Assembly: GCF_030704535.1 (NCBI RefSeq)
Contig: NC_081810.1
Span: forward strand, 6,520,501 to 6,584,500
Direction of reading: 5' to 3'
Length of the DNA: 64,000 nucleotides
Source of the DNA: Vitis vinifera
Taxonomy: Eukaryota; Streptophyta; Magnoliopsida; Vitales; Vitaceae
Under the pieces are notes generated by a model that had not been told where the DNA came from, ran no database searches, and saw only the letters and a program-made list of their open reading frames with translations. The translations under genes were made by a program, and so were the position numbers. Numbering within the stretch: the first letter of the stretch is position 1; each line of letters opens with the position of its first letter. Below, piece by piece: positions 2,764-29,473 of the stretch.

Positions 2764-3984
2764 ACTCTTTTCCTCTCTTCAGCTAAATGAAGTATAGAGA
2801 AAGAGACTAAACTTCAGTTTCTGATAATGGATTCTGATCGGTTTTTAAGGTAAAACGCAGAAGTCAATGGCTATTTTGCTTTGCTTTGCTGTGTCACATG
2901 TCACATTGATGAACCGTGATCCTCATCAACACGCATTAAAAGGAAGTGCAACAACGCTTACTCTTCTCTGCTCTCTTTCTTTTTCTTCGCATTTGGATTG
3001 GTAGTTGAGTGTTACAGTTTATTGTGGGTGATCTCTTCAAACTGCTTTTCTAAAATAGATCAAAGAAATCTTTTCACATGATTTAGTTGAGAATGAAAGT
3101 ATTTTGAAAACTAGTTGAAAGATGTAAAAATGAAGAATGAAGACTGGGAGGTGGACCATGAGGCATGTGGTGGAATGGGGCTCACAGGGCCTAACCCAAC
3201 CACCAGTCTTCTCAACTACTCACCCAAAAGCAAGTTGGAGAATCTGTGGGCGTTTACTATGAAATCACCCCAACTCTCCATTTATCTGCCTTAATTTATT
3301 CCGAGTCTTTATGAAAATAAAACATTATTAGGAGTTCAAAAATCCCTACATAACACAAGCCATTCTCCTTTTCATTCACAAGCCCCTCCCTCTAAGCCTC
3401 AAATACTAAAGATGTGGTCAAGTGATCCTGAAACCCAAGTGGCAAATGCAATTTTGAGTAAAACTGTCCTGACCCAGATGCAGATGACTCCAAGCCAAAT
3501 TTAGTCTTCTTCAAACATGTTGACCAGCAGCTCAGCAAAGGCTTGTCCCACAACCACAAAATGGTAATGAGTCATCAGGAACCCTAGTGAGAACCCTGAA
3601 CTAATAAATAATAACACTTTGACTATAACTATTTGTAGTTATATGAGGACTGGAATAACTTTATAGCTATGCAAATGGCTTTGTTGATTATAAAAATGGA
3701 GTTCATGCAAGTCTCATATAGCTGGACAAACGTCAACTCCAAGTCCACCCACAAAAAACCTCAGCACTGTACACTCCCCCACAAACTTCAGATTGTGTTT
3801 TCACACTGTTCCCAACTTTTTCTGACCACCTTCTTTTCTTTCTTAAAGCAATGTGTTCCCTTGTTTGACATTCGCCCTCTAGAGAGAAAAGAGTATCTGA
3901 CTCAGTAATTATCGTATCTTCTCCACCCAGCAACAGCAGCCTCAGTATTGTATTATCAAAACAACCCACCTAAGTTCTGTGGCT
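2764..3984. promoter_or_regulatory. shared spacer between divergent genes
   Basis: About 1.2 kb separates the start codons of the USP gene (minus) and the unknown-function gene (plus), so both promoters must lie here. I see no coding exon and no repeat. CT-rich runs near 2958-2990 and 3820-3910 may belong to the 5' leaders. No specific regulatory motif stands out. Confidence 0.5.
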
Positions 3985-10927: not shown

Positions 10928-11441
10928 CTTAAGAAAAATATAAAAGAAAACCAAATATAATTAAAATTAATTAGAAATTTATGCATCTTCAAATTATTTA
11001 ATATTTATATAAAAGAGTTAAAATAAGTGAAATTAATATGAATATGTGTTTACCCATTTAAATAGAGTTGACATCCTCTTTAAATGTTATTTCATATTTA
11101 GTAAAGAAATAAAAGTATAATATAAAAATTATTGTTTAAAATTATAAAATAGCTTTCGGAGTAATTATGATATCATATTGTAGTTTGGGCTTTCTAAAAG
11201 TAGAAGATTAAAATTAAATTAAAAGTAGGAACTAAAATTAAGATATAACAAAAAAAAAAAAAACAACATGGATAGAAAACCATTTGATCACAAGACTAAC
11301 TACACTTGTCACTTTTTATGTTTAAAATTGAACAAAAACTTTTTGTAGTCAACAAAAAATTTTCCCCAAGTTAGAAGCAAATGTCAACCGAGTTCCTCGC
11401 TAGCATTCCACCTATTATCAATAAAACGAATCGATCCTAAT

Positions 11442-11878
11442 TAGGGGTCTCTAACGGGCGGGCTGGGCCGTAAATAGGAGGTCTGTGGCCCAACTCGGGC
11501 CGGGCCTATGGGCCCGTTGACTGGTCAACGGGCCGGGCCATGCTAAAATGCTAGGCCCGTGGGCTAGCGGGCTGGGCAGGCCGGGCCGGGCCGACGGGCT
11601 TTTTTAAATAAGCCAAAATGGCTTTCAAAAAAGGGAAGAGAGAGGGGGGGATTCGAACCCCTCCCCTCATGTTTAAATTTCAAGGTTCTAACCAACTGAG
11701 CTACATTCCTTTTATGCTTATTAATTGAATATTTTTTTAATACTTTTTATTTTTGTAGTTTTTTTTTAAAAAGGGCGGGCCTAAGGGCTGGGCCTAAATT
11801 TAGGCCCGCGGCCCGGCCCGCCCATAAACGGGCTTGAGCCAGGCCTAAAGCGGGCCGCGGGCTTTTTGGAGACCCTTA
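11442..11878. mobile_element. non-autonomous hAT-type element, GC-rich, with tRNA-like core
   Basis: Ends are TAGGGGTCTC on the left and GAGACCCTTA on the right, near-perfect inverted repeats. Both sides are flanked by the 8-bp duplication ATCCTAAT (11434-11441 and 11879-11886). An 8-bp duplication with short TIRs is diagnostic of hAT transposition. The 437-bp body has no transposase. Its arms are dense in GGGCCGGGC-like motifs, making it far more GC-rich than its surroundings, and are partly complementary to each other, so a strong foldback is expected. The middle carries a tRNA-like segment listed separately. Confidence 0.88.
11640..11712 (-). other. tRNA-like sequence inside the hAT element
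   Basis: On the minus strand an A-box match TAGCTCAGTTGG (11703-11692) is followed about 33 bases later by a perfect B-box GGTTCGAATCC (11659-11649). The T-arm GGGGTTCGAATCCCC folds well and the D-stem GCTC/GAAC has one mismatch. The acceptor ends do not pair convincingly and I cannot assign an anticodon, so this is a degenerate tRNA or a tRNA-derived internal promoter rather than a working tRNA gene. Confidence 0.7.
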
Positions 11879-11886
11879 ATCCTAAT

Positions 11887-13137: not shown

Positions 13138-13620
13138 TCAGCAACTCATTGGAGAAAGATAAAAGGCCTTCTCCGACGGCCGCAACGTTTCACTCCCCCT
13201 GAAAAGCCTACTCCCAAAAACCAAAAACCCCACTGCGTGTCCGGCCACCGCCACCAGAAACATTCCGCCATTGAAGGACATCAAAGCCAGCATCACCATA
13301 TACTCCAGACCCATCCGAATAGCGTGCAGCAGCGTCTGAACCACCCCTGCGGCTACATGGGTCGACCCAGGCTTGATCAGCTGGAAATGGGAAAGCCACT
13401 CCACGATGATGGCCATAACGAAGACGACGATCAAGGCTAACGCGTACATGCCGCTGCGTGTTCCGGGCCAGCCAGAGAAGAGAATCTCGGCTTTCTTCCC
13501 CCAGTAGAATGTCATGTGCATCATCATCTCCATGTGGTGCATGGGTGGCATCCCGGTGGAGTTCGCTGGCGGTGGCGACATGTGCATGTGACCGTGATCG
13601 TGATCGTGATCGTGATCCAT
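13138..13620 (-). CDS. COPT: COPT-type copper transporter, copy 1
   Basis: Intronless Ctr/COPT protein of 160 residues that imports Cu(I) as a trimer at the plasma membrane or releases it from vacuoles. The N-terminus is His/Met-rich (MDHDHDHDHGHMHMS, then MHHMEMMMHMTFYWG), a copper-capture region. Three membrane helices follow: about 57-80 (MYALALIVVFVMAIIVEW), 100-118 with the essential MxxxM copper filter (MLALM), and 122-142 with the GxxxG packing motif (GHAVG). The C-terminus ends PMSC, a cysteine used in copper hand-off. The start is the ATG at 13620 because the His/Met region begins there. Three GTAC cores lie within 115 bases upstream. The nearest relative is copy 2 at 16954. Confidence 0.95.
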   Translation of the reverse strand: MDHDHDHDHGHMHMSPPPANSTGMPPMHHMEMMMHMTFYWGKKAEILFSGWPGTRSGMYALALIVVFVMAIIVEWLSHFQLIKPGSTHVAAGVVQTLLHAIRMGLEYMVMLALMSFNGGMFLVAVAGHAVGFLVFGSRLFRGSETLRPSEKAFYLSPMSC

Positions 13621-13684
13621 TTCCTTGACGTGTTTTGGTTCTGGGAAGAGGCTGATGGGGCTGATATACATAGACGACAATTTG

Positions 13685-13735
13685 ATAGTACATGAGACGG
13701 CATTGTACTGGTAATGGAATAGTGTGTAGTACAAT
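13685..13735 (-). promoter_or_regulatory. cluster of GTAC cores upstream of COPT copy 1
   Basis: GTAC occurs at 13688-13691, 13705-13708 and 13729-13732, about 70 to 115 bases upstream of the start codon. GTAC is the core of copper-response elements bound by SPL7-type SBP factors. The matching region of copy 2 has lost the first core (GTAC to TTAC) and lacks the others. Binding is an inference. Confidence 0.45.
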
Positions 13736-13739
13736 ATAC

Positions 13740-15104
13740 ATTCCATATATGGGAAAATACATGGTTAATCAAGAAGCTTATTAGGAAAATGTTTTCTTTC
13801 TTCTTTTTTTTCTATCAGTATGAGACTTTTATTTTTTTTCTCTTTTTAGATAGAAAATATAAATGTTGTTTCTAATTTTTATAAATGCTAAATATTTTTG
13901 GTATTCAAATTTGTTTTGGCTTTTAAAAATAAAAGATAAAAACATATTTAATAATTATATAAGTGAAGAAAAATATTTTTGATGATTTTAGTCATTTTAC
14001 AATGAATGCTAGAAAATTTTCAATATTTTGAGATGCCACACTAAGAAAAATTAGATTATTATATGAGTGTTAATTTCTCATTTTAAAAATATGTTGAGAG
14101 AATCCCATTTAATTAAAAATAAATAATTTTTTATGACTCTCTACAACAATGTTGAAAATGATGAAGGTATTAAAAGTTGGTACTTGAATTTATAGAAATA
14201 TGAAAAATATGGGATGAAAAATGTGAAAAAGAAAAGAAAACAAAATTTGGGTGGAATGAAAATATTAGAAAAGATTTTAAGGTTATGTTTAGTTAGTAGG
14301 ATAGAATATATATATGTAGGACCTCAGGCGTTACCAACTCTCCTAAAAGCAATTGCTTGTAGGAAATGCGTATATCCTAATCTTACAGTACATTCATCCA
14401 AGCGCCCATGGTGAACACAAGGGGAGTTGATGGACGCAGTCAACCCTTCGATCTGCCAACAATATGTATATTAGGAAATGTACATATATGATTTTTAATA
14501 AGATATGATATTATTGAATATTATATTCAATGGATCTTTTATATTTAATTTGTAAATTAATAAAAATGAGATATAATATATATTATTTTTCAATGTTTAA
14601 AAATAAAAATTATATTATATTTCAATATTTTTTATTTTTTACATTTAATAATAGTCATGATTAAAATATTTAAATTTTATAAATAAAAATTTATTATATT
14701 ATGTTATTCAATATATAAAAATATTTTTTATATATTGAATAATAAATATATTAATATTATTTAATAATATATTTTATAATTTTTTTTAGTTTTCCTTTTT
14801 TAACCAAAAATATATATATATTTTGCAAGATAAGTAATATAAAAAAATAAAAATAAAATTGATAAAAAATAAAAAATAAAGTTATGATATATGGGATATG
14901 ATAATATCGAGTTATCTTATTCCATGTTTGATTGAATATAAGATATGATAAATTGTGAGATGAACTTATCTGTTTTTATCATTAACCAAACATGAGATAT
15001 GATATGTTATCTCATCTCTTATTTATTCTTGCGTTACATCCAACTCTAAACAATAAAACAAATAATAGTCAAATTATTATTAGTCAATACATATATTTGT
15101 CTAA
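13740..15104. other. AT-rich intergenic DNA
   Basis: No exon supported. The stretch is dominated by AT-rich sequence with several ATATGATA-type repeats (14490-15010), probably a decayed MITE. A short less AT-rich island at about 14320-14460 has no recognisable product. Confidence 0.45.
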
Positions 15105-15660
15105 CTTGAAATGAAAAATTAAATCATTCAAAAATTTTAAATAAGATTTATATAAATTACTTAATTTAAAAGTTTGTTTTAAAAGTCTCTTCACAAAATT
15201 ATTTTTGGTCAAACGAGTTGATACAAGGATTAATGAAAATCAAGGTACTAGAATGAAGAAGATGGGTAAAATAAGTTTGTGCAAAATGGTTGGCAAGGGA
15301 CTTAATGGAAAGTCCAATCCAGAAGAGATTTTGGTGGAATATTATTAATTGACAAAGTCTTTAAAGTCACCATCTTTGTAGTTAATTTCCAAGTCTTGAA
15401 GAAGAAAGCAGGCTAAGGCTTGTCTATTTCTGTGATCTATCTTGTAAGGCATGAGTCATGCTGTTTGGGAGAAGTCACTTCAAAAATTTTGGCTTATATC
15501 ATGAATGGTGACTTGATCATCTTAATTTTCAACACCAAAGGTCTACTACCTGGAAATTTGGCTTTACAAGAGAGCCAAATACATTCATAACTATCAATTC
15601 CATGTACAAATACATACATAACACTCAAAGAGCAAGAATCAACCTGTCAACCCAATTAAA
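15105..15660. repeat. duplicated COPT flank, copy A
   Basis: This block is homologous to 17757-18350 (copy C) almost along its length and to 15777-16040 (copy B) over its first part. Shared landmarks include TTTGTGCAAAATGGTTGGCA and AAAGTCACCATCTTTGTAG. It has no coding potential. The block travels with the COPT gene and marks the duplicated unit. Confidence 0.8.
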
Positions 15661-15776
15661 TAAATAATCTAAAACAAGCTTAGCGAAAATTTAAATAGCT
15701 GGCTCTAGCAAGCTTGGAAAGAAACCAAAAAAAAAATTAAAAAAAAAAAAAAAATCATATATTAGCAAAAGGCACG

Positions 15777-16040
15777 AAACAATGAAAATTATTTTCTCCA
15801 AAATGCACTCCCCATGGAAGTGACCTTTTTGGGTTGTAAATTCATTTATATTTTATACATAATACATGTTTAGATAATTCTTCCAAAATTCTAAATAAGA
15901 TTTATATAAATTACATTATTTTAAAATTCTCTTCACAAAATCATTTTTGATGAAAAGGGCTATCAAAATACTAGAATCCAAGAAGATGGGTTAAATTAGT
16001 TTGTGCGAAATGGCTGGCAAGGGAACAAAGTGAGAAACAT
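15777..16040. repeat. duplicated COPT flank, copy B (partial)
   Basis: Homologous to 17757-18003, including AAAATGCACTCCCCAT and the GAAGATGGGTTAAATTAGTT segment. Similarity stops shortly after GGCTGGCAAGGGA. It is a truncated third copy of the flanking block, lying between COPT copies 1 and 2. Confidence 0.75.
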
Positions 16041-16307
16041 TTATATACAGAGCAACTTCATATAACCCTTCGTATGAATAGATGATGAACAGAAAGAAAA
16101 AAAAAAGGAGGAAAAAGAGAAAAGATTCTCATGCTAGCTTTTCTTAACTCCTATAATTTGGCATCATACATGGGAAGCATAGGAAGCATAACAATGTGCG
16201 GTGAACTAGAAATTGTTGACCAACCAGGAAAGGAAGAAGGTGAGTTGAGCCCTTTTACCAGATACAACACCAACTTGAGAATCGACTACCTTAATTCAGG
16301 CAACGAG

Positions 16308-16766
16308 GAGCTTTGACCCAAAATAGTGTGTTTTAAAAAAAAGTTCCAAAAAATAAAGTTGCTTTGAAAATAATGTCCGATCTAATATGTCTGTGCCACA
16401 TAAGCTGTAAAGTCATAAAACCGTAGTTGGTGACTACGGTTTTATTTTTTTAAAGTGGTTAGAAACCGTAATTACCAATCACGGTTTTAACTTTAAGTTT
16501 AAAGCCGTAGTTGGTGACTATGACTTTGACTTTTTTTTTAAATGGTCAAAGCCGTAGTCACCAACTACGGCTTTAAACTTAAAGTTAAAATCGTGATTGG
16601 TAACTACAGTTTCTAACCACTTTAAAAAAATAAAACCGTAATCACTAATTACGATTTTATGACATGACAGTTTATATAGCACAAACGCATTTGATCGGAC
16701 ATTATTTTTAAAATAATTTTATATTTTGAAATTTTTTTTTTAAACGTACTATTTTGGGTCAAAGCT
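16308..16766. mobile_element. palindromic Mutator-type MITE with nested hairpins
   Basis: Terminal inverted repeats AGCTTTGACCCAAAATAGT (left, from 16309) and its exact complement (right, ending 16766) are flanked by the 10-bp direct repeat AGGCAACGAG (16298-16307 and 16767-16776). A 9-10 bp target duplication points to the Mutator superfamily. The 459-bp body is almost entirely self-complementary around a centre near 16540, and each arm holds smaller palindromes of the type CCGTAGTTGGTGACTACGG. It has no coding capacity. It lies about 190 bases beyond the 3' end of COPT copy 2, inside the duplicated block. Confidence 0.9.
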
Positions 16767-16953
16767 AGGCAACGAGAATCATAAGTCATCATATGACAAG
16801 ACAAGAACATACAGTATAAGCCCTAGAATTTCATTATTTCCGTCCTTACACAGACGCAGTAGAAATAGGTTAATTATAAAGTTCCACGTACGTACAATAG
16901 TACACTGCCATTTGTAATTGAATTCCAACCCAATTCAACTGATCAGCGACTCA

Positions 16954-17409
16954 TTAAGGAAGATCAGAGGTCTTCTCCAACGACACCATTTCACTCCCCC
17001 TGCAAACCCTACTCCCGAAAACCAAAAACCCCACTGCGTGTCCGGCCACCGCCACCAGAAACACTCCGCCATTGAAGGACATCAGAGCCAGCATCACCAT
17101 ATACGCCAGACCAATCCGAATAGTGTGCAGCAGCGTCTGAACCAGCCCTGCGGCTGCATGGGTCGACCCAGGCTTGATCAGCCGGCAATAGGAAAGCCAC
17201 TCCACGATGATGCCCATAACGAAGACGACGATCAAGGCTAAGGCGTACATGCCGCTGCGAGCTCCGGGCCAGCCAGAGAAGAGAATCTCGGCTTCCTTGC
17301 CCCAGTAGAATGTCATGTGCATCATCATCTCCATGTGGTGCATGGGTGACATCCCGGTGGAGTTCGCCGGCGGTGGCGACATGTGCATATGATCGTGATC
17401 TTGATCCAT
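16954..17409 (-). CDS. COPT: COPT-type copper transporter, copy 2
   Basis: Intronless Ctr/COPT protein of 151 residues, very similar to copy 1. It has the His/Met-rich N-terminus (MDQDHDHMHMS, MHHMEMMMHMTFYWG), three helices, the MxxxM filter (MLALM) and GxxxG (GHAVG). The N-terminal His-Asp run is shorter than in copy 1. The C-terminus stops at SLEKTSDLP: compared with copy 1, a one-base deletion just before the end creates TAA, so the final Cys-containing tail (PMSC in copy 1) is lost. The pore should be intact, but cytosolic copper hand-off through that cysteine would be missing. It arose by tandem duplication with copy 1, as the shared 3' flanks show. Confidence 0.94.
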   Translation of the reverse strand: MDQDHDHMHMSPPPANSTGMSPMHHMEMMMHMTFYWGKEAEILFSGWPGARSGMYALALIVVFVMGIIVEWLSYCRLIKPGSTHAAAGLVQTLLHTIRIGLAYMVMLALMSFNGGVFLVAVAGHAVGFLVFGSRVCRGSEMVSLEKTSDLP

Positions 17410-17756
17410 TCCCGTGACGTGTTTCGGTTTTGGGAAGAGGCTGATGGGGTTGATATATATAGACGATAATTTGATATTACATGAGACGGTTTATTAAGAA
17501 AATGCATTAACTTTTTTTTTTCTCTTTCTAATACAAAATATAAATTATTAACAAACCTTGTCACTTTGTAAAAATAATATTAATATCATCAGTAACATGT
17601 TTGTTGTAAAGACTAAAATGATGACGGGTAATGTGAGAGCTGTATAGGTGAGGTCTAATAAAATGTACTTGTCAGCTTGTCTTGTATATGTAATAGCCCA
17701 CCTTTGACTAGTTGGAGGATAATCTTAAAAACATACTAAAATTATTATTTTAGTAT

Positions 17757-18350
17757 ATAAAGTGAAAATTATTTTCTTTAAAATGCACTTCCCATTAAAG
17801 TGACTTTTTTGAATTCTAAATTTATCCATATTCTATACCTACTACATGCTTACATAATTCTTCCAAAATTCTAAGATTTATATAAATTACATTATCTTAA
17901 AATAATCTTCACAAAATCATTTTTGGTCAAAAGGGCTATCAAAATACTAGAATCCGAGAAGATGGGTTAAAATTAGTTTGTGCAAAATGGTTGGCAAGGG
18001 ATTTAATGGAAAGTCCAATCCAAAAGGGACAATGGTGGAATATTATTAATTGACGAAGTCTTTAAAGTCACCATCTTTGTAGTTAATTTCCAAGTGTTGG
18101 AGAAGAATGCATGCTAAGGCTTGTCTATTTCTGTGATCTCTCTCTTGTAAGGCATGAGCCATGCTGTTTGGGAGAAGTCACTCCAAAAATTTTGGCTTAT
18201 ATCATGAATGGTGACTTGACCATCTTAATTTTCAATACCAAATGTCTACTACTTGGAAATTTGGCTTTACAAGAGAGCCAAATACACTTATATAACACCC
18301 AAAGGGCAAGAATCAACCTTTAAATAAATAATCTAAAAAAAATTTTATTC
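17757..18350. repeat. duplicated COPT flank, copy C
   Basis: The longest version of the block also seen at 15105-15660 and 15777-16040. It lies upstream of COPT copy 2 just as copy A lies upstream of COPT copy 1, so gene and flank were duplicated together. No coding capacity. Confidence 0.8.
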
Positions 18351-18903
18351 AACTATATATCTAACGACTTTTAGATAGTGCCGTCTGATGCCTTTTTTCT
18401 TTTAAGTGATTGTTTCCTTTTGATTTTTGCCGGCCCTTGTGAACTCTGATCTTGTTTCGTTTGCCTTCTTTTCAAGCAATATTGGTTCATCTACAAATGA
18501 AAAGAAATGGAGATGGGCTACAATGGCGGAGAAAACAGTGATTTGAGGCCCTGTACGCAGAAACGGAAACAGTGGGTCAACCATACCCGCTTTCCTATAC
18601 CCCACGTCCTCCAACCACAAGCTTTTATCTTCTTACTTTCTCTCACAGCCACACAAACACACACCAATCAAAAGTGCAAAAAACAATAATAATAAAATAA
18701 AACAAAAGAACGCCCTTTCAAGTGTATATGAACCTGGGAAGGATCGAAAACGATGTCATCCAATGGTGGATTTTCAGATAATTTTCTTTTAGAGAACAGG
18801 AAAGCTCAGACATATTATCAAACAATATTTACATACAGACTATTACAATCAGAAATTAAGTCTTCAGAAAAAAGAAGAATACTTTATAACACAAACTGCA
18901 AAA
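18351..18903. other. intergenic, 3' side of COPT copy 3
   Basis: No supported exon. The last 150 bases are probably the 3' UTR of COPT copy 3. The rest shows no recognisable element. Confidence 0.45.
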
Positions 18904-19398
18904 TCAGCAACTCATAGAAGGAAGATCAGGGGCTGAATTTCGCTGAGGAGCCGGAGACTTGTTCCTGAAAACCCTACTCCCAAACAAGAAAAACCCCAAA
19001 CAATGCCCAGCAACAGCCACAATGAAGATCCCAGCGTTGAAAGACATGAGTGCAAGCATCACCATGTAGGCAAGCCCCACCCTGACCCCATGAATAATGG
19101 TCTCGGCAGCGCCACCAAGAAGGCTGTTTGTAGAGGATTTGATGAGTTGGGAATGAGAGAGCATTTCAACAAGCACAGAGACGACGAAGACGAAGACCAG
19201 GGACAAGACGTACATGCCGGTGCGAGTGCCGGGCCAGCCGGAGAAGAGGATCTCGGCGTTCTTCCCCCAGAAGAAGGTGGGGTGCATCACCACGCGGTGC
19301 AGCTTGTGGTGGTGGATGTTCATGGGCGGCGGCGGTGGTGGTCCTGGCGGTGCTGCGATTTCACCACCCACGCCTGGCATTTCATCACTGCTGTTCAT
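18904..19398 (-). CDS. COPT: COPT-type copper transporter, copy 3
   Basis: Intronless Ctr/COPT protein of 164 residues. The N-terminus differs from copies 1 and 2: it has a proline run (PPGPPPPPPMN) and fewer Met/His (IHHHKLHRVVMHPTFFWG). The membrane core is canonical: GWPGTRTGMYVLSLVFVFVV, MVMLALMSFN with the MxxxM filter, and GHCLG as the GxxxG motif. The tail ends PDLPSMSC, keeping the terminal cysteine. I chose the ATG at 19398. An in-frame ATG at 19479 would add a highly basic 27-residue leader (KREKKK...) that no COPT is known to have. A GTAC-rich tandem array lies 0.8 to 1.7 kb upstream. Confidence 0.92.
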   Translation of the reverse strand: MNSSDEMPGVGGEIAAPPGPPPPPPMNIHHHKLHRVVMHPTFFWGKNAEILFSGWPGTRTGMYVLSLVFVFVVSVLVEMLSHSQLIKSSTNSLLGGAAETIIHGVRVGLAYMVMLALMSFNAGIFIVAVAGHCLGFFLFGSRVFRNKSPAPQRNSAPDLPSMSC

Positions 19399-20225
19399 GG
19401 GACTTCCTCTGAACACTCTCTTCTCTTTCTCTCTCTGTTTCTCTCCCCTCTCCTGTGTTTTCTTTTTCTCTCTCTTCACTGTTTCGATGGAAGTGATCCT
19501 ACGTTGAAGTAAAGGTGTGAGTCAGGCTCCACATTCAAAACTGGGAGAATGGTGATTTACAACCATTGGGCCTGAAAATTCGCCAAGTTCCTTCTATCAT
19601 TCATGATATCAAATAGTAATGGACAAAAATACTCATTCACGAGGTGTTTGTGAGGTGTTTGTGAGACCCATCAATTTACTCTTGATCACATGCCAACTCC
19701 AACAAATTCTGCCTGGAATCCGTTTTTTGATTTTTCATTATTTTTTGAACTCTTTTATAAATAATTTAAAATCAACATTATTTTTTATTTTAAAATTATA
19801 AATAAAAAAATTACATTACTAATTCAAAAACTATTTTGAAAAATACCTTTTTAACAAATTTATTGATTTAAATGAATAAAAATTGTCTTTTACATTTTAA
19901 AAGTAAATAATTTAATGATTAAAACACTATTTAAAATAAACATATTTATTATTTTCTTTTATACTAAAAAGCATTTTAAAGTTTTATTATTATTATTATT
20001 CTAAAATTAAATTTTTAAATTTTCTTTTAATTTTTTTCCTTTTTTATTTTAATAACATTCTGAACATAATTTCTAATGATAAGTTATATGAAATGTTGCA
20101 AATTTATCTACTAAGGAATTTTTTTTTTAATGATTTGAACTAATTGAAAATTTATCAAAATAAGAAAAAACAAAAGAGAGAAAGAGGATAAATGGAGAGT
20201 TTTTATTTTAAATATCCAATTAAGA
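19399..20225. other. COPT copy 3 upstream region and AT-rich DNA
   Basis: CT-rich 5' leader at about 19405-19485, then AT-rich sequence without exons. Nothing else recognisable. Confidence 0.45.
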
Positions 20226-21065
20226 TAAGGTGTACAAAATATTTATATTAATTTTAAATATCCAATTAAGATAAGGTATACAAAGTATTTACATTAAGTG
20301 TACAAAGTAAATGTACTAACTATACAAAGGTGTACAAGGCTACCTTCCTCGAAAGAATTCAATTAATTTTTAAAAACTCGCTCACTCATTTTCTTTTGCC
20401 AATAATTGGGAGCATTCCACAGAGACACATTCATCCGAAACATTTTTTTTTTTACATCGTACATATTCATTCGATTACCTATCCCACTAATAATGAATAG
20501 GAACATCAATTGGGTTTAAATTTTCCCCTTTTCCTTGAGTCATGACAATAAAAACATGGTTAACTCACTCATATGCATATATTGCATTCTAAGTCCATGA
20601 AATTTGTACAGGTGTACAAGATATTTACACTAAGTGTACAAGGTAAAGTACTAACTATACAAGGATATACAAAGTTACCTTTCTTGAAGGAATGCAACTG
20701 ATTTTCAAAAACTCATTCGCTCATTTCCATTTGCCGAGAATGGATGACATTTCACAGACAAATTTCTTGATAACACACTCATCTTATGCATTTTTTTTAT
20801 GTCGTACATATTCATTCGATTACCTACCCCACTAATAATAATAAGAACATAAATTGGGTTCAATTTTTCCCATTTTCCTTTAGCCATGACAATGAGAATA
20901 TGGTTAACTCACCCATATTCACACATTGCATTTTAGGTCTATGAAATTTGTGTAAGTATATAAGGTATTTACACTAAGCGTACAAAGTAAATGTATTAAC
21001 TAAATAAGAGTGTATAAGGCTACATTCCTTGATGGATTTCAACCAATTTTCAAAAACTCACTCGA
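20226..21065. repeat. about 343-bp tandem array, roughly 2.4 copies
   Basis: Landmarks recur with a period of about 343 bases: TATTTACA(T/C)TAAG at about 20286, 20621 and 20966; CATATTCATTCGATTACCTA at about 20463 and 20806; GGTTAACTCAC at about 20559 and 20902. Units are diverged by substitutions and small indels and have no coding capacity. TGTACAA-type words are frequent; by eye I count about eleven GTAC cores. The array lies upstream of COPT copy 3 and downstream of COPT copy 4. Confidence 0.8.
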
Positions 21066-21328
21066 CTCTAATTTCTAAATTTCATCATCAAAAATTTGTA
21101 ACTTCATATTTTGTTTTTTGTAACCCATATAATTTAAATTTTTCGAAAACTCTCCATCTCTCTTCAATGTTTTCCTATTGAACTGTACATATACTTTTTT
21201 TCCAACATATTTTTTCAATATTTTCTTATATCTTTAGAATTAAGTCTATATTTATGAATGTTAATATTATTGAAAAAAGAAAAAACCATAGTCTTGGACT
21301 TAAGTGTAGATGCAATACTCAAAATTTG

Positions 21329-21329
<1 letters not shown>

Positions 21330-21405
<76 letters not shown>
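21330..21405. repeat. (TA)n microsatellite
   Basis: An uninterrupted TA dinucleotide run of roughly 37 repeats. It is likely polymorphic and prone to assembly length errors. Confidence 0.95.
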
Positions 21406-21407
<2 letters not shown>

Positions 21408-22990
21408 GATTCTAAAATTAACTTCTACTCTATACGTATTTTTATTAATTCATCATGAGTACTAATACAAGATTACATAGTGTAGTTGCACTCTTATTGT
21501 GAATTTGATCTGATCATGTGCTAAAAGGAAAAAAAAAAAAAAACAAAACAAAAGTTTGAATGAACAAATAAAATTATGCGGCAACTACCTAGCTGCATAC
21601 CCACATTATCAAAGACATTCTAGAAAATTCTTTCCCACAATGCTGGGAATTAGAATGCCCAAGTTTTAAGATGAAAATCAAAGTCCCACAACTCTTATTG
21701 TAGTTCTTCTTCACTTGTAGATCCATGGACAAACTTGTTAAGTTTATCACACATATCCATTTTGTTCCAATACTAAAAGTAGAATCCCCAACCAACCCAA
21801 AAAGGAGAGCCCAAAAATAGTTCACATTCCCATCCAAACAAGCCAATTTTCTTGAGAAAATGTGAGTGAAAAAAGGCAAAAAACAAAACCAAATACAAAA
21901 TTAATCAAGACGATGTATAAATACCTGAGCAAGAAGCACATGGAAAACCGAATTCCCAACAACCAAAAAACTTGCACTAGTGAAGGTCTCAATGTCGACG
22001 AAGAGGAAAATGGCAATAGTGAGAAACACGGGGATGTTGACTACCACAATGACAAGAATAGGACTTTGAGCTCCTTTAGGAATATTCATGTACCTACAAC
22101 AACATTGATGACAATGATGACCACAGGGATCCAGAGTAGATGATGACAGCTAGGGTTTCGAATCATTTGGGGTTTTGGTGTATTCAATTCTTTAGAAAAA
22201 GAAAACTAATAGGAGAAATATTTTAATTATCAAACTTAGAATCCATTTTGCAAATTATATTTTCGATATAATTATATATTTTTTTTTGGAGATCAGTTAA
22301 GGGTATTTTCGGATTTATAGAATGTCAATATCCTTTATCTCATCTCAATTTGCAAGACTTTACTAGACTTTGGGCCCAATTACACGGGTTAGGACTTAGG
22401 GTCAACTTCCGAACCCATAGGGACATAAAGCACATTTCTCCAAAAAAAAAAAAAAAAAATTCTGGTGTTCCTGTACGGCAGGTGCAGATACATTTGTTTA
22501 CACTGGCCAGGTGTCATAAAGGAAGGGTATTTCTGTTATTTTTCAAGAAATGCAGGGGGGGTTTTGGTCGGCAAATTTGACCCAACTGACCAAGACTAGA
22601 TCCCTGCCTGTCCAAGAATTTTGGCTCCACGCCCGAACTATGCGTTTGGTTCCCGAGAATAAGAAAAGAAATAGAAAGGTGAATAAAAAATCATTAAAAA
22701 AAAGTAGGAATCAAAATCCTATTAAAAAAAAAAAAGATATAATTTGCTATTAAAAGAAAAAGGGTTATTTCTATAAATAAAATAATTAAGTTTTATTAAA
22801 TTCATGAACCCAAATTGGATCAAATAGAGTATTGTCCGTTGGGAGACTAGGAAAAGGAAAAAGGATTTTGTTTTTATTTTTTCAAACAATATAAACATAG
22901 CATTGTTGGATTTTAATTGGATGCCATAAAAGCATCAAAATCAAAAGAAATGAAAACAAGGTTGTACAACAGAGACAAATTAAGGAGTGG
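21406..22990. other. intergenic, no supported gene
   Basis: Several open frames at 21590-22140 read as hydrophobic on the minus strand, but no family is recognised and they have neither clear splice sites nor a start context. A further AT-rich stretch at 22640-22760 resembles half of the TATGTTTGGTTC MITE family. The last 70 bases are probably the COPT copy 4 3' UTR. Confidence 0.4.
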
Positions 22991-23512
22991 TCAGCAATTC
23001 AAAGGAGGAAGATCAGAGGCTTTCTCATAAGGCAACATCTCTGATGAATCCCTGAAAACCCTACTCCCAAAAAGCAAGAACCCAGTGGTATATCCAGCAA
23101 TGGCCACGAGGAACACCCCAACGTTGAAGGACATGACAGCAAGCATCACCAGATAGGCCAGACCAACCCTTAGCCCATACATAGCTGTTTGGAGAAGGCC
23201 AGCCACAAGCTTATTGGTGGTGGACTTGATGAATCTGGTGTGTGAGAGCCACTCCACAAGCATTGAAAGCCCAAACACCAGAGCCAAGGCCACCGCATAC
23301 ATCCCAGAGCTTTGCCCTGGCCAGCCTGAGAAGAAGATCTCTGTGCTCATTCCCCAGAAAAATGTCATGTGGGTCATCATTGTTTTGTCCATTTTCATAT
23401 CACCCATGGCTGTTCTGTTCATCACATCACCCATGGATGTGCTGTTCATCATATCACCCATGGCTGTACTGTTCATCATATCACCCATGGCTGTGCTGTT
23501 CATTGGCACCAT
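22991..23512 (-). CDS. COPT: COPT-type copper transporter, copy 4, with Met-repeat N-terminus
   Basis: Intronless Ctr/COPT protein of 173 residues, the most diverged copy of the cluster. The N-terminus is built from four tandem 9-residue units of the form MNSTAMGDM (residues about 4-39), which supply paired methionines for Cu(I) capture, then MKMDKTMMTHMTFFWG. The helices are MYAVALALVFGLSMLVEW, the MxxxM filter (MLAVM) and GxxxG (GYTTG). The tail ends SDLPPLNC, keeping the terminal cysteine. Six GTAC cores lie within 300 bases upstream of the start, suggesting copper-deficiency induction through an SPL7-type factor. Confidence 0.95.
   Translation of the reverse strand: MVPMNSTAMGDMMNSTAMGDMMNSTSMGDVMNRTAMGDMKMDKTMMTHMTFFWGMSTEIFFSGWPGQSSGMYAVALALVFGLSMLVEWLSHTRFIKSTTNKLVAGLLQTAMYGLRVGLAYLVMLAVMSFNVGVFLVAIAGYTTGFLLFGSRVFRDSSEMLPYEKASDLPPLNC
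23400..23505 (-). repeat. 27-bp in-frame tandem repeat in COPT copy 4
   Basis: Four consecutive units encode MNSTAMGDM, MNSTAMGDM, MNSTSMGDV and MNRTAMGDM. The period is 27 bases and near-identity at the DNA level implies recent slippage or unequal exchange. Allelic copy-number variation would change the number of methionines without breaking the frame. Confidence 0.9.
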
Positions 23513-26028: not shown

Positions 26029-26111
26029 TGGTTACCATCCCACACTCACTGCATCATCAATCGAAGAACTATCAGTAGTAGTGATCTTTGAGCTTGCTCT
26101 TTAATACCATT

Positions 26112-26546
26112 ATGGCTTTGATTCCTCGTTTCTTTGGAAACCCAAGTGTTTCTGACCCATTTCCTCGTGAAATGTGGGACCCGCTCTTCGGCTCCGGTGA
26201 GGCATCATCCTTGGCCAATTTGCAGATTGATTGGAAGGAGACGCCTGAGGCTCATGTCTTCAAGGCAGACCTTCCTGGGCTGAAGAAAGAGGAGGTGAAA
26301 GTGGAGGTTGAAGAAGGGAGAGTGCTGAAGATAAGTGGGGAGAGAAGCATGGAGAAGGAGGACAAGAATGATAAGTGGCACCGCGTAGAGCGGAGCCATG
26401 GCAAGTTCCTGAGGAGTTTCAGGTTGCCGGAAAATGCTAAGGTGGATGCTGTGAAGGCTGCAATGGAGAATGGTGTTCTTACTGTTACTGTTCCTAAGAA
26501 GGAAGTGAAAAAACATGAGGTCAAGTCCATTGAGATCAGCGGTTGA
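26112..26546 (+). CDS. class I small heat-shock protein (17 kDa type)
   Basis: Intronless cytosolic class I sHSP of 144 residues, an ATP-independent holdase that keeps unfolding proteins soluble in large oligomers. The N-arm starts [10 protein letters not shown] and ends with the class I DPF/WDPLF motifs. The alpha-crystallin domain covers about residues 36-130, with consensus II ([20 protein letters not shown]), LKISGER, then consensus I ([20 protein letters not shown] followed by VTVPK). The C-tail ends KSIEISG with the IxI motif that docks onto neighbouring subunits. The ATG at 26112 is the natural start; an upstream in-frame TTG is not used. The promoter has heat-shock elements. Confidence 0.97.
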
Positions 26547-26885
26547 GAAATTGAGACCATCATATCATATATCAGCGTGTTTTCTTGATGTTGAGTGCTT
26601 TGTTTTCATTTTCTTTTAATGGGCCTTCTGGCTTTTTCTTTCCTTTTATGTAAGGATGATGAGTCTTTGTCTGTCCTATCTATGAAGAATGAAGAATGAG
26701 TACATTTCTACTCGTTTCCATTTGCAAATTCAATGAACTTCCACATATCATATCACTCTTCAGTCTGCTCCAATCAAAGGGGCTTGCCACTAATTTAATC
26801 TAACCCATCATTTTAGGCGTATATAGATAATAGAGATCTGTATTGAGAGAGAGGATCTCAAGACCCAACACTTCCACGTGGAGAG

Positions 26886-26923
26886 ATGCCAAGGAGGGTG
26901 GTGCTAGTTCCTTGTCCATTCTG
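26886..26923 (+). pseudogene. orphan 5' fragment of a UGT gene
   Basis: The sequence reads [12 protein letters not shown] and then breaks, matching the first 12 codons of the complete UGT that starts at 27688. About 25 bases upstream also match (CTTCCACG.. then GAGAGATGCC), so a short 5' leader was copied with it. No further UGT sequence follows. It is a duplicated and truncated gene start. Confidence 0.8.
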
Positions 26924-27687
26924 TAGTTGATAGAGCCTTGGCCTGTATGCGGGCAGAAGGTCATATCCCCCTACAAAATCAGTTTCTGCAAGAGTATGTT
27001 TAATTTAGCAATTAGCACATAATTTTTGTTTAAAAACTTCTGTTTGTATTGTGAATTATTAACTTTTCATTCGACCGGTTTGATGATTAGTGTCATAAGA
27101 AATCTAGATCGTCACGGAGTATACTAACACTCCAGAATTCAATAGAAGGGCATTTTTCTTAGTGCAACAAGAGTTTTACATCCTAACACAATTGCTGGAA
27201 TTATCAATAAGAAAAAGGAAATGGGCTTCCATACCAGAAGCAGTCTCCGTAAAAGTATACCTTCAATGATAGTAATGCTTAGAGAAAGGACAGGACAGGT
27301 CAGTCATCTATGAATAGTTGCGTCAAGTACGTATGTTCGGATTCCCTCCAAAGAAAAAAACAAAAAGTTTATGATCGGTCTTTCTATCTATAAAGTATTA
27401 AAAAAATTCAACTGTATCTATTTGTCCATATACTATAGGGCTGTGATACCACTTACCAGCCTTTGAAGGGCTTGTTACTATATACTCTGTAGTAATAATA
27501 TATACAATGGCTTCATTGACTGGCATTGTTCTTCTGTATGTCTTCTTCAGCCCTAGCCTCTCCCCAGATCTCTCTTACTTCAGCCTCTAAGGTTCACAAC
27601 TTTGTCCCAGTGGGATTAAGAGTTCTGCAGCTGATTTTTCTTTAGAAAGTGAAAGAATCTCACCTCTCAACTCTTCCACGAAGAGAG

Positions 27688-29473
27688 ATGCCGAGGAGAG
27701 TGGTACTTGTTCCATGTCCATTCCAAGGCCACATAAATCCCATGCTTCAGCTGGGAGCAATACTCCATTCAAGGGGCTTTTCCATCACAGTTGCTCACAC
27801 CCAATACAACTCTCCTGATCCCTCCAACCACCCTGATTTCAGCTTCCTCCCCATTCCGGACGGCTTATCTGATGGCCAAAACTTTGCCAGTCTATTAAAT
27901 CTTGTACTGGCTGCTAATGTCAACTGTGAATCTCCTCTCCGGGAATGCCTGGCAGAAAAACAAGAACAGCATGGCGACATCGCTTGTATAATCCATGATA
28001 TCACCATGTACTTCGCTGAGGCTGTGGCTAACCATTTGAAAGTTCCAAGCATCAACCTCGTCACTAGCAATGTTTCCACTACCATAGCTCACAATGCCTT
28101 TCCTAGCCTCCTGGAAAAAGGTCACATTCCCCTGCAAGGTTAGTACTGCAGAAAGGCTTTTTTGCTTGGTTAAGCTTCAAATCAGCAGTTAGGATCATCT
28201 TCTTGCCAAAAAAAATTTGGGGTTTTTCTGCAAGTTCCCTAATCTTATCACATCAATAAGAATCAAGCTGATAGTTTCATCAATCCAGTTTAATTTTTGG
28301 TGCATATGATAAACAAAGTTGGTCTTGATATTGTATGGTACTAATTCAGGAAAGGTTTAGAACAAACACGAGGATTTTGTGGATTTGAGACTGTGGGGCC
28401 CCAAGAATCAAACCTACACAAAGGAACCAGTGTCTGTTCCCTTGATTTCAAAAATCCCCTGTTTTGTATGCTCTGTAAAGATTGATTATTCAGCATTGAA
28501 TTCACTTTAAGAGATCACACACTTCACCATAGCCTTCCCTGCTCTTTGAACCATGGAATTATGGATACTGAATGGTATTATACTATGGATTGCAGGCTCT
28601 ACCCTACATGATCCAGTGCCTGAGCTTCATCCCCTCAGATTCAAGGATCTTCCCATCTCCCGTTTGGGAGACTTGGAAGCTTTCTTCCAGATACTAGTTA
28701 ATATGTACAAAAAGAAATTTTCTTCACCCATCATTTGGAACACCATGGACTGCCTTGAACAATCCTCATTAACACAGCGACAACAACAGCTCCAGGTCCC
28801 ATTCTTCCCAATAGGCCCTCTCCATAAACTTGCTCCACCCTCCTCAAGTAGCTTGCTCGAAGAGGATAGTAGCTGCATCACATGGCTTGATAAGCATTCT
28901 CCTAAGTCAGTCATCTATGTTAGCTGGGGGAGCTTGGCATGCATGGATGCCAAGGACCTAGCTGAGGTTGCTTGGGGCCTGGCCAACAGCAACCAGCCTT
29001 TCTTGTGGGTGGTTCGACCCGGCTCGGTCCGCGGCTCACAGTGGATAGAGCAGCTGCCGGAGACCTTCATGGACACAGTTGGAGAAAGATGCCACATTGT
29101 GAAATGGGCACCCCAGAAGGAAGTGTTGGGGCACCGAGCAGTTGGAGGGTTTTGGAGCCATTGTGGCTGGAACTCAACACTGGAAAGCATCTCCGAAGGG
29201 GTTCCAATGATCTGCAGGCCTTATTCAGGGGACCAAAGGGTGAACACAAGGTATATAAGCCATGTTTGGAAGGTGGGATTGGAGTTGGAGAGTGATGAGT
29301 TAGAGAGGGTGGAGATAGAAAGAGCTGTGAGAAGGCTGATGGTAGATGGAGAAGGGGAGGAGATGAGGCAGAGGGCAATGGAACTGAAGGAGAAGGTTGA
29401 TATTTGTACAAGTGAAGGTGGTTCTTCCAACAGAGCCTTGAAGGAGCTGGTGGAGTATATCTCTTCATTCTAG
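27688..29473 (+). CDS. UDP-glycosyltransferase, UGT76-like
   Basis: Family 1 UGT of 442 residues that transfers a sugar from a UDP-sugar to a small hydrophobic acceptor in the cytosol. Exon 1 is 27688-28138 and exon 2 is 28596-29473; the donor is GTTAGT and the phase is consistent. The N-domain has the catalytic His15 in QGHINPML and the partner Asp104 in CIIHD. The C-domain holds the PSPG box at about 321-364: [30 protein letters not shown], ending DQ. The terminal Gln favours UDP-glucose. Similarity in start ([11 protein letters not shown]) and intron position suggests the UGT76 group. The acceptor cannot be read from sequence. It stands alone except for the orphan 5' fragment 0.8 kb upstream. 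Confidence 0.94.

Follow-up and report, generated by a model that had tools for sequence, protein, structure and literature searches.

The stretch of grapevine DNA analysed here (the window, 64 kb within a 495.6-Mb assembly of 21 contigs) contains several open frames that by eye resemble plant genes. Four consecutive minus-strand frames at 13138-23512 resemble CTR/COPT copper transporters, and at 26088-29473 one frame resembles a small heat-shock protein and two resemble UDP-glycosyltransferases, again as judged by eye. At 11442-11878 lies a 437-bp hAT element, flanked by a perfect 8-bp duplication (TSD, ATCCTAAT, at 11434-11441 and 11879-11886). Its left terminal inverted repeat (TIR), TAGGGGTCTCTAA (11442-11454, plus strand), and its right one, TTGGAGACCCTTA as read on the plus strand (11866-11878, minus strand), match as inverted repeats at 11 of 13 positions; of the exact hAT hallmarks claimed in a first-pass annotation of this DNA, the duplication is perfect and the TIR is not exact. 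In sibling copies, the left TIR is mostly TA[AG]GGGTCTCCAA. The mobile unit has TIRs and an 8-bp TSD, rather than the tail end without TIRs that characterizes a SINE.

Inspection of the sequence and of its inverted repeats confirmed the GC-rich arms described earlier. The left subterminal arm (11455-11600) has repeated GGGCC motifs and a counterpart in all eight of the long copies described below, and it may have a role in transposase binding; the right subterminal arm occupies 11774-11865. Within the left arm, a perfect 11-bp inverted repeat, GGCCCGTTGAC-TG-GTCAACGGGCC (11511-11534), is a candidate transposase site or hairpin, and it is nearly identical in a sister-family element (L013:937-1336).

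A degenerate tRNA-like core is located on the minus strand at 11636-11711. The A box, TAGCTCAGTTGG (11703-11692), and a perfect B box, GGTTCGAATCC (11659-11649), which is part of an extended T-arm-like hairpin, are indeed present at tRNA spacing and on the minus strand, a point that the annotation left unstated. A CAA triplet lies upstream (11725-11727, minus strand), and a run of six T residues downstream of the B box (11627-11632, minus strand) is a possible Pol III terminator. Next to these, a small palindrome, AAGCCAAAATGGCTT (11610-11624), is the best conserved among the stretches that were compared around the core. The earlier proposal also depended on a box match better than in shuffled sequence, and this was found: the joint A/B-box pattern, which was loosened from the element's own sequence after that sequence had been viewed, has a single occurrence in the window and is absent from all 100 dinucleotide shuffles.

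The element belongs to a family with at least 40 genomic places (of 384 first-look candidates, 40 were scored), and all 40 cover the core, although this count is biased since the query of the genome search contained the core, so that copies without it would be under-found. From 42 fetched loci, which include two pairs representing the same place each, 39 copies were carved, 31 of 360-541 bp and eight longer; L041 was dropped for having no TSD. Perfect 8-bp TSDs flank 34 of these copies, four have a TSD with one mismatch and one (L009) has none. The target-site preference of hAT elements is nTnnnnAn. Here, T at position 2 and A at position 7 each reach 59% with both strands pooled, and among 39 sites (38 main-family elements plus the sister element) both positions agree in 12 and either one in 34.

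With strict patterns, the A box was recovered in 33 of the 39 copies, the exact B box in 28 and both at tRNA spacing in 23, and the joint pattern is present in 23 of the 42 fetched loci. No relaxed B box was found on either strand in 6 of the 38 listed main-family elements. The stretch directly beyond the core is present in every one of the 39 copies. Read on the minus strand, the order of the motifs is a TATA-like TATATATA run, CAA, the A box, a degenerate anticodon region, the B box hairpin, a pyrimidine-rich stretch and a T run. The TATA-like run occurs in 30 of 39 copies; it is absent from class A (defined below), including the window copy, where it was cut away by internal deletion. The upstream triplet is CAA in 25 copies and CAT in the other 14, and an upstream CAWTTAWTAARYAHAAAA stretch is found in 37 of 39. 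In all 38 elements with a B-box match (up to two changes), the 80 nt downstream of the B box contain TTTT, a count to which no chance rate is attached, and for about half of these elements the nearest TTTT belongs to the neighbouring palindrome, about 30 nt on. As far as the sequence goes, the TATA-like run, CAA and T run would suit plant Pol III.

The likeness to a tRNA becomes weaker when the core is scored as a whole. ARAGORN calls no tRNA in the window, and the Rfam matches there up to E 10 include none. At the window core, Rfam reports a same-clan tmRNA model at 12.6 bits and omits two weaker same-clan matches; a weak tRNA match may thus be hidden. The Rfam tRNA model matches the core in three of 27 records (L027, L015 and L013) at 24.8-28.0 bits, with the best score in L027 and a gathering score of 29; the remaining 24 show a same-clan tmRNA model at the core (nine, where weak tRNA matches may again be masked) or neither (15), and two pairs among the 27 records represent the same place. 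ARAGORN recognizes a tRNA at the core in four of 42 loci, representing three places (L020, L027 and L026/L032), whereas 38 loci are without a call; in all four calls the anticodon is TTA, a stop-reading form. When introns were allowed, ARAGORN returned five "tRNAs" of mixed kinds in 28 elements, and at a lowered threshold 122; these results were given no weight. It also called a tRNA-Thr (tgt) at L009:1128-1199, outside the hAT copy. An Rfam match to PrrB_RsmZ at 11554-11672 (24 bits, gathering score 44) was taken as a composition match. A long inverted repeat at L027:3299-3411, which is perhaps another palindromic MITE, matches mir-2543 on both strands at 45 bits against a threshold of 70.

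Folding gave a similar picture. A stem closing three hairpins was obtained in eight of 39 minimum-energy folds, and 31 were not cloverleaf-like; among four stretches compared with shuffles, the best z was -2.05 (L032) and the others ranged from -0.35 to -1.31. Base-pair covariation in the D stem and extended T stem was no better than in shuffles for 38 of 40 cores (L021 and L042, with deletions in the hairpin, were left out), and a control slid by two columns scored above the real alignment (0.153 vs 0.147). In view of the sub-threshold Rfam scores and a covariation equal to that of shuffles, a working tRNA was rejected. Taken together, the motifs and the Rfam, ARAGORN, folding and covariation results indicate a core that is most likely tRNA-derived but is no working tRNA. 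Of the "tRNA-like core with intact A and B boxes" reported earlier, the likeness and the A and B boxes stand, but the region is degenerate and no intact tRNA; on the present evidence "tRNA-like" is the right label, while "tRNA" goes beyond it. Within the family, variation at non-CpG/CHG sites is 0.059 in the A box, 0.014 in the B box and 0.061 in the arm, and CpG decay is 0.105 in the B box vs 0.103 in the arm. Copy-level constraint on the A box was not found in the comparison of 39 copies, where it varies like the arm.

The family includes copies with transposase sequence. Two of these were spotted first, since L023 and L026 run past the core into coding sequence, and six similar places were added. 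These eight places, which match the left part of the window element only, comprise seven hAT elements with lengths of 3020-3148 bp and a shorter one of 1572 bp, with a perfect TSD in six cases and a single mismatch in two. By eye, their plus-strand frames have transposase sequence in common; all are interrupted or partly deleted, with 645 codons still open in L036. The Pfam analysis, which was limited to L036, detected Dimer_Tnp_hAT (1.3e-26), hAT-like_RNase-H (6.6e-12) and zf-BED (4.2e-4), the BED finger being barely above the cut-off (20.7 vs 20.6 bits), and a PDB search with the same copy matched Hermes transposase (7.1e-11). In all eight long elements the core lies within positions 187-292, oriented away from the transposase. 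In L036 it is followed, as seen by eye, by the TATA-like CCTATAAATACA, which is possibly used by the transposase gene. Thus, the suggestion that a MITE captured a tRNA does not hold: the core is already in the left subterminal region of each of the eight transposase-bearing copies.

Comparison with L036 gives the origin of the window copy, which aligns with this long element over 4-281 and 2921-3023, the two segments overlapping by a short AATT where they join (11727-11728 in the window). About 40 bp of its right arm are without an in-place match in L036; against L033, this arm (108 bp) matches over its full length at 83%. With its shared ends and deleted interior, the window copy is by its sequence an internal-deletion derivative of a 3.0-3.15-kb hAT element. 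The left breakpoints of eight MITEs, which are BLAST ends and thus approximate, fall at 281-284 (L001, L002 and L009), 299 (L040), 322-329 (L012 and L013) and 338-344 (L017 and L022). By text motifs, the 31 MITEs were divided into class A (nine, including the window copy), class B (20, with L040 placed there by motif despite its differing breakpoint) and class C (two). In a tree of the left parts, with an unsettled bootstrap and stars on only 5 of its 36 branches, the classes and the long copies interleave, and the well-supported branches force at least three label changes for class B and likewise for the long copies. It is likely, from these sequence comparisons, that several deletions made the MITEs. 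The long copies L031, L037 and L038 differ behind the core by a few added or changed bases (CCCTTGGC in L031) that lead into the AAAGCCATTTTGGCTT palindrome, an arrangement that is perhaps an older form.

A view of the core in another family is offered by a 400-bp sister-family hAT MITE on the minus strand at L013:937-1336, 164 bp from a main-family copy. It has TSD GGTCAGGA, perfect 13-bp ends and a GC-rich arm, and was found through arms, ends and TSD instead of through the core; a blastn search with the window core at E 1e-3 does not list it. Among the elements in the 239 kb examined, it alone was chosen independently of the core, and a core is present in it (one of one). This core has the same place and orientation and is strongly diverged, with TATATATATATAACTAATGCAA, an A-box-like CAGCTTAATTGG and an exact B box. 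Relative to the MITE majority, the A box is identical at 9 of 12 positions, the B box at 11 of 11, the spacers and anticodon region at 29 of 63 and the TATA-to-CAA stretch at 21 of 22, with one more difference in this stretch if the 39-copy majority is used. The contrast between boxes (20/23) and spacers (29/63) gives a Fisher p of 5e-4, and with TATA-to-CAA counted with the rest (20/23 vs 50/85) p is 0.009. This footprint between families is suggestive only, since positions are treated as independent and a single sister element is available; furthermore, the left arm is itself identical at 107 of 145 positions, so that the boxes are set apart from it only slightly. With the core in the transposase parents and a diverged form of it in the sister element, the acquisition probably predates both families, i.e. 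the tRNA-like unit probably entered their common ancestor.

Chance emergence of A- and B-like boxes within the sequence of the element itself, without any descent from a tRNA, agrees with the absence of a tRNA call by ARAGORN or Rfam in the window and with the 38 loci in which ARAGORN ignores the core. Nevertheless, it is very unlikely in view of the four loci (three places) where the core is called, the 28.0 bits of the tRNA model in L027, the retention of the boxes in the sister element and the result with the 100 shuffles, even though the pattern used there had been relaxed on the basis of this very sequence. A tRNA gene captured by a MITE would account for the A and B boxes, but the core is carried by eight of eight long parents; this origin was rejected, is taken as refuted and is even less probable than chance.

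Two readings remain for the core, a passive passenger or a kept Pol III/TFIIIC unit. A tRNA or SINE fragment that inserted once in an ancestral hAT element and has since been hitchhiking, with no Pol III activity or effect, has in our opinion about an even chance of being the right description. It is in agreement with an A-box variation and a B-box CpG decay equal to those of the arm, with pair covariation no better than in shuffles, with the predominance of folds that are not cloverleaf-like (31/39), with the loss of even a relaxed B box in six of the 38 listed main-family elements and of CAA in 14 of 39 copies, and with the well-kept left arm of the sister element. Against it stand the better agreement between families of the boxes than of the core spacers, and the 21 of 22 identical positions from TATA to CAA. 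This same footprint of boxes and upstream motif argues for a unit under selection, which would help the element by an accessible end, by insulation of the transposase promoter or by a short RNA. The TTTT that follows the B box in each of the 38 elements with a B-box match points in the same direction, as does the presence of the core in all 31 carved MITEs, with several different breakpoints, in a sample biased by the core-containing query. The footprint depends, however, on one sister element in which the left arm is conserved nearly as well, and we regard selection on the core as possible but rather doubtful.

The reading that we prefer, with a probability of about 0.7, is that the window element is an internal-deletion hAT derivative whose lineage ancestrally acquired a tRNA-related unit, since decayed and inherited by MITEs as a weak Pol III/TFIIIC site. 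The original observation of a hAT element with a tRNA-like core is confirmed, and the interpretation given to it in the first-pass annotation is partly supported. According to the proposed scheme, a tRNA-related unit, either a tRNA gene or the head of a SINE, would have entered the left subterminal region of a hAT ancestor, pointing away from the transposase gene. Its cloverleaf would then have decayed, while many copies retained the A and B boxes along with the motifs upstream and downstream of them. Deletion of transposase parts would have produced the MITEs, which keep the core because the deletions begin beyond it; they would be moved by the parent's transposase, which would act on their ends and on the GC-rich arms. 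On the minus strand, the core would provide a weak Pol III/TFIIIC site, from which a short RNA of about 80-100 nt could arise. The anatomy, the parentage of the window copy and the diverged core of one sister element are shown by the sequences; protein binding, transcription and any benefit are what we infer. More tentative than any of this, and if anything a little less probable than selection on the core as such, is the idea that the lineage maintains, at its left end and pointing away from a Pol II transposase gene, a selected Pol III/TFIIIC unit, and that the MITEs would inherit a portable Pol III promoter.

Several known systems resemble parts of this arrangement. SINEs derived from tRNA have a degenerate tRNA head with A and B boxes, in which the cloverleaf is often lost; the core described here is alike, and the element as a whole has TIRs, an 8-bp TSD and a parent with transposase sequence. 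SINEs are the main class of mobile DNA in which Pol III promoters are known. Ordinary hAT MITEs are also internal-deletion derivatives, but those studied here carry a tRNA-like region that they inherited from their parent elements. Plant nuclear tRNA genes reportedly possess TATA, CAA and poly-T motifs, an observation said to come from Yukawa in 2000. As far as a published account of such genes with these three motifs goes, the order of motifs around the A and B boxes is the same as in the core (PMC12308677), whereas in the core the acceptor and anticodon parts are degenerate. The Hatvine families of grapevine, in the parts of their published description considered here, share with the present family an 8-bp TSD, short TIRs, a hAT transposase and many deleted copies (PMC2528002). 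By that description, Hatvine-9 is 2.9 kb long with a TIR of 8 and a TSD of 8, compared with a 13-bp TIR in the family reported here, and the word "tRNA" occurs zero times in the main text (PMC2528002). In the open PMC literature, judged from titles and the starts of abstracts, no description of a tRNA-like core in a hAT element was found.

Even if the core is passive, its presence in this family explains tRNA-like matches as transposon-borne instead of as tRNA genes. If the core is a promoter, these elements would represent a cut-and-paste transposon with two transcription systems, and a family with a Pol III promoter already in the transposase parent, and with one in a sister family, would make it possible to test whether TFIIIC sites help a DNA transposon. 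If this is true, the MITEs would scatter TFIIIC sites through the grapevine genome.
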